Below are positions 18,843 to 28,062 of a stretch of DNA of 64,000 bases, piece after piece. The position numbers were made by a program, and so were the translations under genes. Each line of letters begins with the position of its first letter. Within the stretch, counting starts at the first letter, position 1. The DNA is from Cannabis sativa (Eukaryota; Streptophyta; Magnoliopsida; Rosales; Cannabaceae), in NCBI RefSeq assembly GCF_029168945.1, contig NC_083601.1, positions 33,345,660 to 33,409,659 on the forward strand, given 5' to 3'. Below the pieces are notes generated by a model. It did not search any database. It saw only the letters and a program-made list of their open reading frames with translations, and was not told the origin of the DNA.

Positions 18843-18970
18843 TTCTCCATTTGGTGACTCCTGTCCTGAGACAAAATTACCAAAAGCGTTAATGTAGCTT
18901 GTTAATTAACATTAAGTCATTAAAAAATTTATTACTAAAGAAAATGTAATATGAATGCTTTATTACACAA
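18843..18970 (+). repeat. Duplicated flank, copy 2 (MULE insertion site)
   Basis: Diverged copy of 11866-12000; it continues on the far side of the MULE at 27746. It ends with the target duplication TTACACAA (18963-18970). Confidence 0.75.
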
Positions 18971-19119
18971 GGGAAATTTCAATTTTTGACCCTAATAAAA
19001 TACCCCATTTCAAAATATATACCCTCCACTAATTTATACAAATTAATTCCACTATTACTCATTTGTACCCAAAATACCCCTCAAATTTAATTTTCCTATT
19101 CACACTCTCTTTCCGTCTT

Positions 19120-19128
19120 TCCCTCTCT

Positions 19129-19172
<44 letters not shown>

Positions 19173-19470
19173 TTCCATCTCTCTCTCTGTCGTTCTCGAT
19201 TGACTCTTCGACATCGACCCAACATCACGACCCACTCCGGCCATCCACCCACGTCCCCGACCCACTCCGGCCATCCACCCACGACCCCGACCCAACCACG
19301 AACCACCACGGACCACCACCACGACCCAGTGACCACCACGAACCACCACGAACCACCACGGACCACAAAACGTCGCCACCACCACCACCCGTGATCGTCG
19401 ACACCGAACAGAGGCCTTCGCCACCACGAGCAGCACGAGCAGTACCCGTCGCCACCACCACCCGTGATCA
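19120..19470. repeat. CT microsatellite followed by GC-rich ACCACGAACC-type simple repeats
   Basis: A (CT)n run at about 19127-19187, then two copies of a 24-bp unit (CCACTCCGGCCATCCACCC…) and runs of ACCACGAACCACC to about 19395. This is the most GC-rich stretch of the element. The long open frames on both strands here are by-products of the simple repeats. A mirrored GA-run lies at 27525-27585 inside the right TIR. Confidence 0.8.
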
Positions 19471-19623
19471 TTAAAAGGTAATGTTTATGTTTTGAGAAAA
19501 AAATACATTTTTCATAGATTTGGATGCCAATTATTGCATGTTGTTGAGATTAGTGGATTTTGTGTAGCATTTGTGATCTTTAGGTGTAGTGTTTGAATGA
19601 AATCTGTGTAAATTACAGGGTTA

Positions 19624-20093
19624 TCGATGACATGTCAATAGGTTATCGATAGGATGTCGATAGATTTAGTGTCTGTTTGAATATTACTGTAATTTGTATG
19701 TCGATAGGATATCGCTTGTATGTCGATAGGATGTCGACTGGCATTTTAAGAGTATTTCTGCCCTATATTGTCGACTACTTATCGACAGTATGTCGATGGT
19801 ATGTCGATTAAATGAACATGTTGATTGTTAGGTTGTATTGTCGATTGAATGTCGACTGTATGTCGACAGTATGTCGATATATTGTGTAATTGTTATTTGT
19901 TTAAATTATCGACTGAATGTCGACAGGATGTCGACATTTTGTCGACATGAAAGTGTTTTCTCTTCTTTTGATAATGTCGACATAATGTCGAGGGTATGTC
20001 GACATAATGTCGACATGTTTGTTTTGAAATTTTTGTGTGCTTACTGTTAGATAATGTCGACTGAATATCGACATGATGTCGATGCTATGTCGA
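19624..20093. repeat. TCGA quartet array 1 (7 quartets)
   Basis: Seven groups, each of four TCGA-centred sites exactly 11 bp apart. Groups start at 19624, 19701, 19771, 19841, 19909, 19977 and 20057, so the group period is about 70 bp (68-80). Two sites have one substitution (TCAA at 19635, TCGC at 19712). The local consensus is ATGTCGAY, with ATG on the left side of the core. The array lies directly upstream of the protease-like gene's ATG (20145). Confidence 0.9.
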
Positions 20094-20144
20094 CAATTTT
20101 AAATTTTTTTAGCAGCTTTATTTATTTGTTTTTTGTTTTTTCAG

Positions 20145-23010
20145 ATGGCTCCCAGACTCATTATTCCAGCACCCGAGCATTTCACTGGCCGCGTCACATA
20201 TAGGGAGCCTTTGGAATTTTTGCCAAAATTAAAGCTCGGTTTGAGGAGTTCAACCTTAACAACACGGCGAAGGAAAGCCGTTTCGGGAGCTTCTGGAATG
20301 CCGTACCACTGACATTCTCCTCGGTGTTATTTCACCAGCTGATGCTCCACAAAATGAAAGTGGATGCTCAGGAGGAGTTGAGGATGAGGTTTTATGTTGG
20401 TCGGAAGGAGGTCCGATTCGGGGTGCTGGAGTTTGCACTCATTACGGGTTTGGACTTCTCCTCGGGGCCAACAGAAGAGGAGAAGGCTGCGCAGGTCGCG
20501 CGCTCGGGGTCAGACCGACTGATCAACAAATATTTCAACCGGTCTGATAGTGTGAAGACAGAAGCACTCCAACTTCAGTTCACAAACTGCCAGAACCCGG
20601 AAGACTTGTACAAGCTCGGCTTGTGCTTGTTTGTGGAGTCAGTGCTTCTGGGCCGCGAGGCCAACGCGCTGATCACGCCTCACATCATTAGATATGTGGA
20701 AGACCTCGAGTTCTTCTTCCGGATTCCTTGGGGGAAGCACTCATTCGCCAGACTCATGCACTCGCTTCAGAAAGACATGTTGAAACAGAAGGCCAACTAC
20801 GAGAAGAAGCTGAGTTCGGATGTTCAGCACGAGTGCAAATACACAGCATATGGCTTCGCACCTGCAGTCCAATATTGGGCGTACGAGGCCATTTTGGAGG
20901 TTGGCAAGAGGTATGGCACGAACCACGGGATTCGGTTCCCCAGGATGCTTAGCTGGACGAGCAAAGGCGATATTGGGAAGAAAGACGTCAGCGCATTATT
21001 TTCTAGACGGGTATGATTTTCACTTATGTTCTGAATAATTATTTAACATAAATGCTTGTAATAAATGCTAAATGGTTTTATTTTGATATTTGTTAAACCA
21101 TAAACAGAATCTGGAAGTGGTGAAGGGGCTCCTTCCACGGACAGAGGAGGAGGCATTTGTGAGGACCATTTCTTACGATGGTGTGGAGAACCTGGTTGAT
21201 GATGCTGTGGATGACACAGAGGCTGAGGCAGGTAGTCAGGTACCAGAGACTCAGGTCCCAGACACTCAGGAAAGAGACACTCAGGTACCAATTTTTGGAA
21301 CTTTTTTTTATGTCTTCATTTTTTATTATTTTTGTTTTGTGATATTTGTTACATTGTGGAATTATCGTATGCTTACCGTATTTTTTTGATATATATTTTT
21401 TCAGGCCACTGGTTCAGAACCTCAGCCCAGTGCACCATCTTCATCAGGCGTTCGGGGTGCCGAGTACACTGATTTAGTGGCTCGGTTGGATAGGATCGAG
21501 GGTGACACTCAGGGTCTGTATGCTGCTCATGTCGAGCTGAAGAAGGCATACGAGACCAGCCATGTAGAGTTGAAGGGTGGTCAGAACGTAATTATGGAGC
21601 AGCTCAGAGACATATTGGCCATGTTGAATCGTCCGCCAACGATGCCTTCAAAGCACGGAGGCCCCACCAGATCCATCTACCCCACCACCAGCTGCTTCAC
21701 CCCCAGTAGAAGAGGATGAGGTCTTCCCCGACGATTACGATCCTTATGAGGGAGCTCCAGCGACTCCGATCGAGGCACAACCTCTTATCCATGTACATGA
21801 CACCGAGTCGCAGGGTGAGATTCTGTCCATAGAGGCACAACCTGCAGTGGTTAAGAGTCGGAAGAGGAAGAGAAAGCCTCCTGTATGGTTCGGTGACTAT
21901 ACGGAGATGAAGAGGAGACATAGGCCATCTTCGACTTTTGATCCTGGAGCCACGGACGAGAAATTGTTAACCACTTTCCGAAAGTGGTGTGTTGGACTCA
22001 TTCGAACCACCAGAGCTTCGGGATTTGAGAAGTGGTGATTACGGTCCGGGATTCTTTTGGATAATGCTCACACCAAAGGAATGGCTTACAGATGACGTAA
22101 GTAAAGTATTTTATAATATTACTTCACTTTACAACTTTATGTGCAATTAATATATTTTTTTGTGTAACTGACATTTCCGTTTATATGCAGCATATAGATG
22201 CAGCAATGCATATGTTGAGGAGGCGACGCACCGACTATCCACTGACATTTCCTCAGAAGGGTATCATTCTCTCCACATTCGTGACCGCCATGATCAGCAG
22301 TGCATGGACGAGCCACAAGGGTCCGAGGAAAAACTTTAAATGGGAGGAATATATCCTGGACTACTGCACAGGGTTTCATAAGGTATTGTTTTAGTAAGAT
22401 TTTAAATGTTAATTGTTTGGGAAGATTATTATGGTTTGTTAATTGTTTCGTTGTTCTCTGTAATTACAGTCCCAAGTCTTTGAGAGATGGAGGGGTAACG
22501 AGTTTATTTACTTCGTTCGCACCTTCCCACGGCAAGACACTGGGTCACAGTTGAAGTGGACATAGAGCTGTGGAAAATTAATGTCTACGACTGTGATTCC
22601 AGCGTCTGTCATTGGACCGCCATGGAACCCATCTTGAAGGTTTGGTCAGAACTGCTGCCCTCGCTAATCCTTGCAACCGGGGAATTTCCACATAACAACC
22701 AGATCATGGCGTTAGCTAACGGTGACATCACGGTGCTTCCAAAAATGCACGCGAGTGGAGCCACTCACGACTTAGTTAGAAGTCGGCAACCGAGTACATA
22801 GCGATAAAAAAGTACTATAGTATTAAAATATGTTTTACGTTAGACTGACTTTACATTTTATTTTGCATTTAGTGGTGATTGTGGCGTGTATTGCATTGAG
22901 TATGTGGAGCATCTCATGATGCAGCGTGGATTGACCGATGTGACGCCAGATCGGATAGCCATGTTTCGTCAACGGTGGTGTGTCGATTTATTTTACCAAA
23001 ATGTCGGCTG
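20145..23010 (+). pseudogene. DUF1985 / ULP1-like (C48) cysteine protease gene of the MULE, frameshifted
   Basis: Starts MAPRLIIPAPEHFTGRVTY at 20145, then shifts frame in a T-run near 20219 into a DUF1985-like domain (20220-21010, with FYVGRKEVRFGVLEFALITG). Plausible introns follow at 21012-21105 and 21285-21404. A second shift lies near 21655, then a Pro-rich and basic linker (KSRKRKRKPP). The peptidase C48 region spans about 22030-23010: catalytic His in HWVTVEVDIEL near 22540, Asp in VYDCD near 22590, Cys in SGDCGVYCIEY near 22880, ending FYQNVG and stop. This is a SUMO-protease-like fold. With two frameshifts the copy is probably inactive unless splicing removes them. The exon plan is my inference. 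Confidence 0.7.
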
Positions 23011-23463
23011 ATTATATTTTTAATTATTGGGACATTGTATATTTTGTGTAATTAACATTACAGTTATGTATATATAGATTTTCTTTTCGTTAAAATTTTG
23101 ATAATTATACGTGGTTTCAAATATAAAATATCAACATTATTCAACAAAAATAACTATTAAACCTAAAAATAATTAAAAAATTTGAAAAATATTCAACCTC
23201 AACAAAAATAACTATGACAAAATATGCGTCATTACAATATATCAAATTTCCCAACGAATACGTACAAGACGCCTCAGATGCGGGCTTTGCATGTTGCTCT
23301 GTTGTGGCCTGAAGCACCACAGCGAGCTGCGGTTTCGTGGTACGGAACCTTTTTATCACCGGCACGGGAAACGGTTCTCCCGTCTTCTTCCAGCGTTGCT
23401 TTTTCTTGGACGACCTACGGGCTTCTTTTCCACGGGTACCCCAACTTTCATATTCTTGATGTG

Positions 23464-25868
23464 TTAAGGGAGAACCCAATCATCCTCGTCACCAGCGAGA
23501 TTGATGGTATCATCGTAAATCTTCCTCCACGTTTCTTTTGAATAATAAGGTGAGCAAAGCGTGTACACACTTGTGTTCGTTTTCAATGCCGCGGCACATG
23601 CATGAAGGCAAGGGAGTTTCAATAACGTGAACACGCCGCAGGTGCATGTTTTTTCAACTAGATTCACATCACCACCTCTTTCACCGTTAGGTCCCCTACC
23701 AACGTTATACAAATTGGCTCCATTTCGTTGGACGCGCCTGTACCTTGCATTTTCATGAATTTTTGCCAAGTTTTTTTCGAAGAGCGTGGCCAAAGGGGTG
23801 GCACATTTGTCAGCATTTTCGAGGCGATCAGCGAACCACGATTGGAGTGTGAACTTGATAAATTCAACCAAAGTAGTTATTGGATATTTCCTGAACTCTT
23901 CTGTGACACTATTGAAGCTTTCAGCAGCGTTGCTCGTCATGATGTTGTATCTATCGCCCAAACAATAAGGGTGAGCCCACTTCTCAAACCCTATACTCTC
24001 CACATATGCAGCGATGGCCGGATTCATCTTTCTAAGCTTCTCGAACTCTCTATCGCATTCAATCTTCGACCATGCGTAAGCAACATTATATATTTGGTTG
24101 TGAAAAGCATCAGTCTTGAATTTGGCGTTCACGTTCATAACAATGTGGTGATAGCATGCACAGTGGACTGCTTCGGGAAAAACGAGTTCAACAGCATGAT
24201 CAATGCTTTGATGCCTATCTGACACAAACACTAAGTTCTCAACCACGCCAATTGCTACCCTCAACTTCTGTAAGAAATACGTCCAGGAGTCGTTATTCTC
24301 ACTGTCAACGATACCATAAGCAACCGGCAACAATTGGTTGTTCGCATCGTATGCCACAGCAACTAACATTATACCGCCGTACTTCGTCTTCAAGAAGGTG
24401 CCATCGATACTCAAAACAGGACGACAAAAAGAAAAGCCCCTTCTACATGCACCGAGTGATATAAAACAGTACTTGAACCGCTCATCCTCTAAGTACAAGT
24501 CAGTAATGGTACCTGGATTCTTCTGTTCCAGCATGTACAAGTACCCAGGAAGCTTCATGTATGAAAACTCAGGCGTACCCCTAGCATACGTAAGTCCCAT
24601 CTCCCTGCACCTCCACGCCTTCACATAACTCATACTGATACCGTAGTTGTCAAACATGTCCCTCTGTATGTCTTTAGCCTTGTACTTAGTTCCGTCTTGG
24701 GTGTACTTCCCCTTAATAAGGTGGCCAACTACCCATGGTGCTGCTTGACGGTGATCTGAACGTCTCGCATTCAAGTTACATGTGTGTTCATTGTGAAATA
24801 CAGTGACCTCAAAGTTGTCAGAATGCATCTTCTTCCTCCCCCTCAATCTCCATTTACAATCTGGAGCCTTGCATGTAACGTACAACACATCAGGGGATGA
24901 CTTCTTCACCATCCACTCGAAATTGTTATTAAGGGCAAACCTACCCACAACTTGTCTCAGTTCTTCCTTGTTTTCATAAAAATTACCAAGCTCTATCACC
25001 CCTGCTTCCTTACTTTGTAAACAAGTAGTTAGCTCATGATTTTCCATTATATCTTCCTTTGTCCACATGGGAGCTTTGAACTTGGTACAAACTTCGAAAG
25101 AGGAGAACGTTGAGAACGTTGCATGACGAGCATGTTCTTCAGTTACGCACGGTCGACTACTGCTAGTTCCAGGTGTAGTGCGATTTTCACTACGAGGTTG
25201 TCGTTCTCGCTGTGTACCTTGGTTACTCGGTACACACTCTAACCTCAACAATGGTCCCGCTACGGGTTCATCGACTGCTAAATCATGGTCATCGTCCATA
25301 TTCAAATCTACAATAGGATCATTATTGTAGAAGGGTGTATCGAACTCTTCAAACTGATGAAATCCTGTCGCTTCTTGTTCTTGCCCTACATTGGTCGGAA
25401 CATCAAAATTGGTCGGAACCTCTAAATTGGCCGGAACCTCCTCATTCACACCAATCCCAACATCTGTTTCGGGAACGCAAGACCCTACCACACTCCGAGG
25501 GAGAGGATTAGTAGGCGGCGTAGGCTCCGAATTCCCAACTTTTCTCACCTTGGTCACGAATAATGGCATAAACTCTGTATTTGACATTGTTGCCCTCATC
25601 TCTAAAAACGTTCTCAGTTGGCGTTCTCTCTTAATAACCTCTGGCGCAACCATTTTTCCCTTCATGTACAAGGAACAAATCTCCAACTTTAAATCATACG
25701 CTACCGGATCAACTTCCAACTCTTCATATAAAATTTGTCGCAGTTCTTGTAGGGTTGTCTCGGTTGTAACTGTCAACGTCAAGCTGCTATTTGCTTTGTA
25801 GATCCAATTATAATTCTCACATAACCAAACACCATCGTACGATACAACAAGGAACACTTTGTCTCCTG
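23464..25868 (-). CDS. MULE (MuDR-type) transposase
   Basis: A long minus-strand frame of about 800 aa. It opens at GDKVFLVVSYDGVWLCENYNW just after a good acceptor (TTGCAATTGCAG), so an upstream exon with the true start is expected. Domains in order: N-terminal PB1-like segment, an acidic low-complexity linker, a MuDR zinc-finger/DNA-binding part (VTCKAPDCKWRLRGRK), the MULE DDE domain (LSIDGTFLKTKYGG, FVSDRHQSID, FPEAVHCACYHHIVMNV), and a C-terminal SWIM finger (CTCGVFTLLKLPCLHACAAAL). The frame ends at TAA 23464-23466. The same frame continues for 35 more codons with a VGRPRKS AT-hook before the next stop (23356-23358), so the tail seems lost by a nonsense change. The core is uninterrupted, so this copy may be recently active. 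Confidence 0.9.
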
Positions 25869-25927
25869 CAATTGCAAACCAAAAAAACAAGGTGAGTAAA
25901 GGAAAAAACACCAAAAAAAAATAAACA

Positions 25928-26300
25928 TCGACATCCCATCGATATCAATAGACATAATGTCGAGAAGCACAATACCAGAAATTAGGGCACTGATTGTCGA
26001 CATTGTGTCGACATAATATCGACATACCATCGACAACGCCAACAACCATGCTCGTCATCGACATACTATCGACATACCATCGACATTATATCGACAATAG
26101 AAACGGTTGCACATTAAATGTTAATAAATTTTACATACGTTCCCAACAACCCTTCCCAACTGAAACGTTGCATGTCAGACACGTGTCCTATCGACAACAT
26201 ATCGACATGAAGTCGACATGTCGTCGACAAATGTGGTAGCAGTGACACTAAATTGGCATGTTGTCGATAAGATGTCGACATAGTATCGACATTCTGTCGA
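25928..26300. repeat. TCGA quartet array 2 (5 quartets)
   Basis: Five groups of four sites at 11-bp spacing, starting at 25928, 25997, 26058, 26191 and 26264. The first group has one altered site (TAGA at 25949). The gap 26095-26190 is about the size of a missing group. The local consensus is RTCGACAT, the reverse complement of the array 1 consensus. The array lies between the transposase gene (minus) and the small third gene (plus), so it occupies their shared divergent promoter region. Confidence 0.9.
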
Positions 26301-26384
26301 TAAATACGCCATTTCATGCGTTTTTCCACGTACGATTACGCATTTAATGACCATTAAATTTTCATACATTCCCAACATTTCTTT

Positions 26385-26395
26385 GCTCTATAAAA
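26385..26395 (+). promoter_or_regulatory. TATA box of the small third MULE gene
   Basis: CTCTATAAAAG just downstream of array 2 and about 95 bp before the ATG at 26484. Confidence 0.7.
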
Positions 26396-26483
26396 GCAAA
26401 GGGAAATCTTATTCATAAGTGCTCTTGTATTCTACCTATCTCTTACTCTTAAAAATTTTCTCTTATTCTCTTAAGTTTGAAAT

Positions 26484-26747
26484 ATGGCCCCAAGAAAGAA
26501 CGGCAAATACCCCATCCTAACTCCTGAGGAGCTGAAGCAGGAGGATGATGTTGGCATAGTTACTCCTGCAATGCAGAAAGTTTTGGACGCCGCTCGAGCT
26601 TTCGAAAGAGAGCGAAACGGTAACGAGTTCAGGTTCATGCAACTTGAAAGAGAATTTGCAAAAACTGGTGAATGGCCGGCTCCACCACCTGGGTTCCCCG
26701 AAGGATGCCGTCGTTGCAAACTGGGCATCTTCAACGGTAAACGGTGA
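26484..26747 (+). CDS. Small third gene of the MULE (87 aa, CxxC pair)
   Basis: An 87-residue frame starting MAPRKNGKYPILTPEELKQE. It has a charged helical middle (AARAFERERNGNEFRFMQLE), then PPPGFPEGCRRCKLG, and it stops at KR. It has its own TATA box and sits head-to-head with the transposase. The next frame, directly after the stop, reads TVKPGTLCKYCKAHPQAKEF and then stop, so a single-base indel near 26740 separates two CxxC pairs that together would form a small zinc-ribbon-like domain. I do not recognise the family. It is neither transposase nor protease, and no clear mudrB similarity is visible to me. Whether the frame is intact or damaged needs comparison with other copies. Confidence 0.65.
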   Translation: MAPRKNGKYPILTPEELKQEDDVGIVTPAMQKVLDAARAFERERNGNEFRFMQLEREFAKTGEWPAPPPGFPEGCRRCKLGIFNGKR

Positions 26748-26976
26748 AGCCTGGAACATTATGCAAGTATTGCAAGGCTCACCCACAAGCCAAAGAATTT
26801 AAAAAAAAATAATTTCTTATGTTATGGTTTGTGGGTTTTATTTAATGTTTTTTTTTTTAATTTTTATGAACTTTTATTTTCTGTTTTTTTTTATGTTTTT
26901 TTTTTGTTATTTTTAATGAAGTTTATTTTCTGTCAATGTTATGTTTATGTTTTATCTACGGTATTTTTCCATTGCA

Positions 26977-27224
26977 TCGATATTTTGTCGACATGATGTC
27001 GACAAAATATCGACAACTTCTCAAAAACAACAAAAAATGCTTGTTGTCGACATTCTGTCGACAAACATGTCGACAAAATGTCGACAAATAGTTAATCCCA
27101 AAGTTGGTTGCATGATGTCGATAACATGTCGACATCATGTCGACATAACGTCGATAATGGTCGTCACTGACCTTTCCTTCATAATCATCGACAAACCATC
27201 GACATATCATCGACATATCATCGA
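26977..27224. repeat. TCGA quartet array 3 (4 quartets)
   Basis: Four groups of four sites, starting at 26977, 27047, 27118 and 27188 (periods 70, 71 and 70 bp). Spacing inside groups is 11 bp except one 12-bp step (27058 to 27070). Same orientation as array 2, opposite to array 1. It lies subterminally, about 0.5 kb from the right end of the element. Confidence 0.9.
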
Positions 27225-28062
27225 TAACACTGGAAAACCCAGAAATCGACTGAAAACCAGATCTGCCAGATCTCAACAATTTCAGACCAAAAAACAGCAG
27301 TTCCAACAATAAACACACGTATAACAATTTTAAACTACATAAAGTCAAACAAAATGCTTAAAATGCAACTTACCCATTATAATGGTGTAAGATTCTTGAG
27401 TGATGTTGTATTGTGCTTCGGTTTTCCACCAACACCCACCGAGAAAACAACCATGCAACAGCAAATAATATCGTGTGGGACGGATTTCAGCTTCGGTTTT
27501 TCATAAATTTTTCAAATTTTTTCCTAGAGAGAGAGAGAGTGGTGCACGAGAGAGAGAGGGAAGAGGGAAGAGAGAGAGAGAAATACACTTTCAGATTTTA
27601 GTTTTTTTTTTTTTTTTTTAAAAAAAAAGGGTAAAATGGGAAGTTCATGTAATTAATGGACTAAATTTGTACAAATTATAAAAGGGTATAAATTTTGATA
27701 TAGGTTGTATTATTAGGGTCAAAAATTGAAATTTCCCTTACACAAATGCATGGGAAAAGCCACATAGTACTAGTCAATAATATAGAGTATATGAAGCAAG
27801 CATTAATTCCTAATTATAATCTCTGGGAATTTAAATATTATATTGGTTGCAGAATTAATAAAGTATAATCATATTATCTTGACAAAGACATATGAGCTCA
27901 ACAAATTAATTATAATTTATATAAATAATATATAGATTATGATTTAGATTGAGATTTAGATCTAGCGCGTTAATTGGAAAAAAGTCCGAGGTATATTTAG
28001 TAGCCTAAATATGTAACATGAAGTTGGAGTCCGATCATATCGAGTTCAAATAGCATGCCTAG

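Follow-up and report, generated by a model that had tools for sequence, protein, structure and literature searches.

Structure of the element and its motif arrays

We analyzed a 64-kb stretch of Cannabis sativa DNA (the window), in which one copy of a MULE-type DNA transposon occupies positions 18971 to 27737 (8767 bp, no strand assigned). The element carries a DUF1985 gene, a MURA-type transposase gene, and a small third gene, and its non-coding DNA holds three arrays of a short motif, WTRTCGAY, set in groups of four. The arrays are described from this single copy, and the non-Cannabis relatives of the element, including those of hop and Trema, are known from proteins alone.

A search for terminal inverted repeats (TIRs) delimited the element, giving a left repeat at 18971 to 19054 on the plus strand and a right repeat at 27654 to 27737 on the minus strand. 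The full arms of that search (18969-19054 and 27654-27739) have 86 nt each and are 84% complementary, and the outermost 27 nt are identical. When the termini are set at GGGAAATTTC, an 8-bp direct repeat, TTACACAA, is seen by eye on both sides of the element (18963-18970 and 27738-27745); target duplications of MULEs measure 8 to 11 bp. The copy combines a MULE transposase domain, TIRs, and an 8-bp target-site repeat, as expected for the MULE superfamily. Judging by protein matches, the host is Cannabis sativa or a very close relative, because the top DUF1985 and small-protein matches are Cannabis entries (96-100% locally and 94%, respectively). The best transposase match reaches 87% (source unspecified), followed by hop at 73% and Cannabis at 72% among the 120 matches listed. 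To the left of the element, the segment 18000-18660 resembles, by eye, the 3' portion of a Ty1/copia polyprotein interrupted by many stops.

Array 1 (19624 to 20093) holds seven quartets on the plus strand, sense to the DUF1985 gene. Array 2 (25928 to 26300) and array 3 (26977 to 27224) hold five and four quartets; in both, the motif is read on the minus strand, which is the sense strand of the transposase gene. The 16 quartets comprise 64 unit positions, 61 of them with an exact TCGA; steps within groups measure 11 bp in 46 of 48 cases, the other two being 10 and 12 bp. Group starts lie 61-80 bp apart in 12 of the 13 intervals, and 133 bp apart in the remaining one. These values confirm the initial annotation, which had described groups of four TCGA sites at 11-bp steps, recurring about every 70 bp in blocks of seven, five, and four. 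It had also assigned every TCGA-centered motif in these blocks to a quartet; an isolated TCGA lies just beyond block 3, at 27246, and 23 more occur elsewhere in the element. Upstream of the small gene, two copies of a block with the form CATTAAAT...CATAC.TTCCCAAC can be made out by eye (26112-26147 and 26345-26380), and the first of them sits in the double-length gap of array 2.

In 200 first-order Markov simulations of the element, TCGA pairs 11 bp apart averaged 0.08 with a maximum of 1, against 41 observed, and the maximum number of perfect quartets was 0, against 12 observed. Throughout the window, TCGA runs at 10-12 bp steps had a length of four in 13 cases, two in four cases, and one in 114 cases, and no run of three or of at least five was found; runs of at least three exact sites were always four (13/13). 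The positions at which a fifth site would fall resemble background, since 32 flanks gave no exact site and three with one mismatch (background 3.1% and 12.3%). Therefore, four looks like a real limit and not the remnant of a longer, decayed array.

The 11-bp steps also agree, within a group, with the earlier proposal that the sites face the same side of the DNA. Between groups this was not shown: the usual group distance of 70 bp corresponds to 6.67 turns of 10.5 bp, and the coherence of group starts at 10.5 bp was 0.21, 0.29, and 0.11 for arrays 1, 2, and 3 (7, 5, and 4 groups). A common 10.5-bp register between groups is thus unsupported. Coherence reached 0.95 at 10.0 bp in array 3 and 0.75 at 10.25 bp in array 2.

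Composition and direction of the repeat unit

Read in motif orientation, the conserved unit is W-T-R-T-C-G-A-Y followed by three free bases, and 59 of the 64 units fit at all eight positions. All 64 units have A or T at position -3, T at position -2, and the TC of the core. The central RTCGAY is a palindrome; the A at +5 that would partner the T at -2 is present in only 38/64. Because this outer T has no kept A opposite, the unit has a direction, plus in array 1 and minus in arrays 2 and 3. The inverse orientation reported earlier for array 1 and arrays 2 and 3 was reproduced by the forward/reverse counts of WTRTCGAY (25/8, 6/18, and 9/16 in arrays 1, 2, and 3). Beyond the arrays, the motif occurs four times in the 64 kb, on both strands.

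A kept order of sites inside each group, also claimed in the initial annotation, is weakly supported. In its favor, base identity depended on the position in the quartet across six columns (permutation p 0.015, all arrays), a signal that comes from the T present at -3 in the first unit of 13/16 quartets (p 0.0005 over all arrays; 0.40 for array 1 by itself). Same-position units of neighboring quartets gave 3.06 versus 2.85 of 6 matches with the -3 column, which points the same way, and 2.31 versus 2.36 of 5 over the linker and flank columns without it, which does not. By these same likeness values, a copied 70-bp higher-order unit is unsupported.

Spacers, CpG content, and array growth

The spacers between groups measure 27-29 nt in 8 of 13 cases and share little or no homology, although weak residual likeness of some neighbors may exist. 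Three of 24 within-array spacer pairs had p <0.05 (0.04, 0.005, and 0.01), mostly treated as chance, as did three of 54 between-array pairs. On this last count, array 1 and arrays 2 and 3 find no support as halves of one long inverted repeat.

The spacers are CpG-poor, with an observed/expected (o/e) ratio of 0.56 for CpG and 1.52 for TpG+CpA, and the other non-coding parts of the element have a CpG o/e of 0.58. The array blocks reach 1.72-1.96, values inflated by the CG of the motif itself. The CG is kept in 62/64 units, beside DNA that shows CpG loss, a pattern that could reflect selection on the sites, a low level of methylation there, or the two combined. Linker bases are slightly more alike among the units of one quartet than across quartets of one array (2.38 versus 2.11 of 5, p 0.013). 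This weakly hints that quartets may have reached four units in part through local slippage by 11 bp, and not by copying a finished 70-bp unit.

The linker likeness is also what a neutral minisatellite would give, in which 11-bp slippage and larger duplication built functionless arrays. For comparison, the four-unit pattern was found at 23 loci of bacterial and archaeal genomes (neighboring frames inspected by eye at 10 of them). A single run of at least three units was present in 21/23, and two runs each in L025 (4 and 5 units) and L033 (12 and 3 units). The single bacterial 11-bp TRTCGAY runs had exactly four units in 8/23, four being the minimum of the pattern, which agrees with simple slippage. 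However, their longest runs span 4 to 54 units, whereas runs of at least three in the window were exactly four without exception. The persistence of 8-bp cores between spacers of little or no homology, and of CG beside CpG-poor spacers, also speaks against a functionless repeat, and we regard this explanation as quite improbable.

No series of quartets every 70 bp occurred among the 23 bacterial and archaeal loci. In viral contigs, the four-unit pattern gave 0 loci, the three-unit pattern gave 10 loci with a single run of three each, and a transposase search returned no match. Metagenome-assembled genomes of Caenispirillum bisanense (L012, L018, L028, and L031) and of an Anaerolineae member (L015, L021, and L023) carry TCGA-centered units at 11-bp steps, 4 to 10 units per array with changing linkers, on several contigs per genome; they are like the plant unit in form only.

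Genes of the element and candidate binders

The initial annotation had proposed a docking platform for the transposase, the small protein, or a silencing factor. A platform is well supported by the sequence; however, none of these three is the best candidate for the binder. The best candidate is the element's own DUF1985 protein, a homologue of VANC21, a DNA-binding anti-silencing factor. The DUF1985 gene (20145 to 23011, plus strand; Pfam DUF1985 E 2.2e-20) encodes a protein with sequence similarity to VANC21 and a predicted VANC21 fold, and a homologue of this protein has a structure solved on DNA. Given this homology, an anti-silencing platform is likelier than a silencing one. The 3' part of the gene is Ulp1/C48-like, with two C48 pieces that lie in order after DUF1985 and score 13.2 and 20.2 bits, each under the Pfam cut-off of 20.7. 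A Parasponia relative (P0022) joins C48 at 53.1 bits and DUF1985 at 29.3 bits (under the 35.1 cut-off) in one protein. In the copy studied, the DUF1985 frame is broken near 20204-20213, in its 5' part.

Exon 2 of the MURA-type transposase gene lies at 23464 to 25865 on the minus strand (Pfam MULE E 2.5e-26, with SWIM and DBD_Tnp_Mut) and ends at a stop that follows DDWVLP and precedes the C-terminal zinc-knuckle part of its relatives (compared with P0028). Its Mutator DNA-binding domain and SWIM finger would suit a reading of the quartets as transposase sites for assembling the transposition complex, comparable to the subterminal TnpA sites of Spm. Additionally, the distance to the element ends is about 0.65 kb for array 1 and 0.5 kb for array 3, and these two arrays are mutually inverted. 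Array 2, however, sits deep inside the element, the TIRs lack WTRTCGAY, and the arrays run in the sense of the genes and within predicted introns; the VANC homologue is also a more specific partner. Transposase binding is consequently improbable.

The small third gene (26484 to 26809, plus strand) has relatives of 106-109 aa with two CxxC pairs, and its frame is broken between residues 86 and 88 of P0023. The family is mainly from Cannabis, with a predicted long helix. Its location between arrays 2 and 3, the 43 invariant columns of 112 in an alignment of six sequences (four from Cannabis, one of unspecified source, and the one of the window), and the resemblance of the cysteine pairs to a zinc site would favor this protein as the binder. 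Against it, the protein belongs to no Pfam family, its best PDB match has E 0.75, and its model, with a predicted local distance difference test score of 56.3, is too poor for a structure search; nothing in these comparisons links it to DNA. We consider it a very improbable binder.

Position of the arrays relative to the genes

The arrays probably lie in the first intron of both large genes, in the sense of the transcript, according to splice signals and joined reading frames. The predicted first intron of the DUF1985 gene (19478 to 20144, plus strand) has the signals AAAAG/GTAATG ... TTTTCAG/ATGGCTCCC and encloses array 1. It is spanned in one chain by P0016, a predicted Cannabis protein, which matches 19331-19426 (weakly, E 0.005) and from 20142 onward (E 2.4e-6). 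The stretch 19228-19366, upstream of array 1 and in or before the predicted first exon, contains short units repeated in tandem, of the CGACCCACTCCGGCCATCC and ACCACGAACC types.

The predicted first intron of the transposase gene (25866 to 27373, minus strand; ATGG/GTAAGT ... TTGCAG/GAGACAAAG) would contain arrays 2 and 3 and the small gene, which lies in the opposite sense within these 1.5 kb. Joining 27374/27373 to 25866/25865 gives a frame that starts MGDKVFLVVSYDGVW, which resembles the starts MGSRVNIIVSYNGVW of P0042 and MGVSKPKDSSLNVFIIYDGVW of P0038. Among the 12 relatives compared, these two have an MG start shortly before a YDGVW-like block, P0029 and P0040 have a different short start at this block, and the remaining eight have no such start. 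The blocks had been assigned to promoters and subterminal zones; they fall in predicted introns and not simply at promoters.

The sense orientation of the blocks in predicted introns would also suit an action in RNA, through hairpin small RNAs or splicing control, or as intron-mediated enhancement motifs. RNA folding of array 1 gave a z of -7.45, better than 100/100 shuffles. However, palindromic units fold trivially and the shuffles hold no control for palindromes; moreover, the palindrome is not kept, as T at -2 is universal and its paired A is not. The enhancement motif TTNGATYTG was absent from both strands of both introns, which leaves that reading unsupported, and CGATT occurred two times and one time on the sense strands. 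We judge an RNA-level role very unlikely.

Relation to known VANC systems

Hosaka 2017 (PMC5735166) describes VANDAL MULEs of Arabidopsis whose non-coding DNA carries dense arrays of motifs in one orientation, to which VANC proteins bind. VANC21 binds YAGTATTAY in the non-coding parts of VANDAL21; motif density seems important, the motifs share one orientation, and they grew by tandem repeat formation. The VANC6 motifs differ (AGTTGTCC/AGTTGTAC), and expression of VANC21 or VANC6 leads to the loss of DNA methylation in their own and related families. The same source calls the specific recognition of its own long transposon by VANC an enigmatic feature of anti-silencing. A 2022 meeting report mentions a then-unpublished VANC21 crystal structure (PMC8756742). 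The earlier statement that no described MULE has such an array was thus too strong, although the two-level grouping into fours was not met in the passages available from open-licence literature on such elements.

The element shares with the VANDAL21 and VANDAL6 systems (PMC5735166, PMC10398659) a transposase gene, a DUF1985 gene, and dense short-motif arrays in non-coding DNA, and with VANC21 itself the protein similarity and predicted fold. Three features of a VANC-type system are present: a DUF1985 protein homologous to VANC21, a MULE with a MURA-type transposase, and a dense short motif in one orientation per block within the non-coding DNA of the same element. It differs in the fixed fours at 11 bp with a period of about 70 bp and in the Ulp1-like 3' part of its DUF1985 gene.

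Ulp1-carrying VANC genes, named KIU (Kaonashi; Hoen 2006 and Sasaki 2022, as cited in the review PMC13317346), act likewise on their own motifs. With KIU, the element shares a VANC-type gene in a MULE with three coding genes and possibly the Ulp1 domain of that gene, whose matches here are each under the Pfam cut-off; KIU elements, however, are described in the parts seen as non-TIR, in contrast to the TIRs of about 85 nt found here. The grapevine ULP1 MULEs (PMC2528002) share a MURA transposase and a ULP1-like region, and the melon and rice ULP1 MULEs (van Leeuwen 2007, as a cited reference) are grouped with them. The passages of the grapevine paper that were examined describe no motif arrays, and the words "tandem" and "subterminal" occur 0 times in its main text.

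A proposed anti-silencing platform

Taken together, the arrays, their orientation and sequence bias, the homology, and the predicted fold suggest that the quartets probably serve as a landing platform for an anti-silencing protein that the element itself encodes. We consider it likely that this MULE with its TIRs carries an anti-silencing system of the VANC type, whose DUF1985 protein binds the WTRTCGAY quartets and counters methylation. The DUF1985 protein would recognize the 8-bp motif, and four sites at 11-bp steps would place four DNA-binding domains on about one helix face, perhaps cooperatively, to form a landing unit that is strong and specific to the family. Several such quartets within the predicted first intron of each large gene would raise the local density, so that only the element's own family is targeted. 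The bound protein would then remove or block DNA methylation, making both genes expressible; units in each first intron may open both promoter-proximal regions against RNA-directed DNA methylation and CG methylation.

Several points weigh against this proposal. The identity of the DUF1985 protein to VANC21 is low (18-19%), and all three genes are damaged in the copy studied, so that any function of the arrays would depend on intact relatives. DUF287, present in the Arabidopsis VANCs although perhaps not defining (PMC5735166), was not found in the scanned relatives or in the pieces of the gene, which is broken and was scanned piecewise. The reported VANC21 and VANC6 motifs lack CG, in contrast to the CG-centered motif here; VANC motifs are reported to change fast. 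Likewise, VANDALs have degenerate TIRs (Sasaki 2023, PMC10398659), whereas the arms here, at 84% over 86 nt with an identical outer part, set the element apart from both these and the non-TIR KIU class. The 3/24 same-array spacer pairs with p <0.05 would also permit slow shared decay.

Significance

Sasaki 2022 (EMBO J) reportedly found VANC specificity to depend on the sequence, density, and helical periodicity of the motifs, and placed the origin of VANC systems in eudicots. If this holds, the 11-bp step is expected, and what is unusual is the four, the CG-centered site, and the long TIRs. These same three features set the element apart from the VANDAL21 and VANDAL6 systems. A natural array of fixed count, spacing, and orientation beside a VANC-type protein would allow direct tests of stoichiometry, helical phasing, and dependence on methylation. 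Should the protein function, the quartets and the DUF1985 protein would form a compact tool for sequence-specific methylation loss in plants.

The CG in every site raises the question of whether binding needs an unmethylated site. In a bolder and rather unlikely reading, each quartet is a quantal docking unit, on which four VANC-type domains come together along one helical face only if all four CG-centered sites are there, and a CG-methylation-reading bistable switch between silencing and escape, in a TIR-bearing MULE lineage outside Brassicaceae. If binding does depend on methylation, the array would be a switch.

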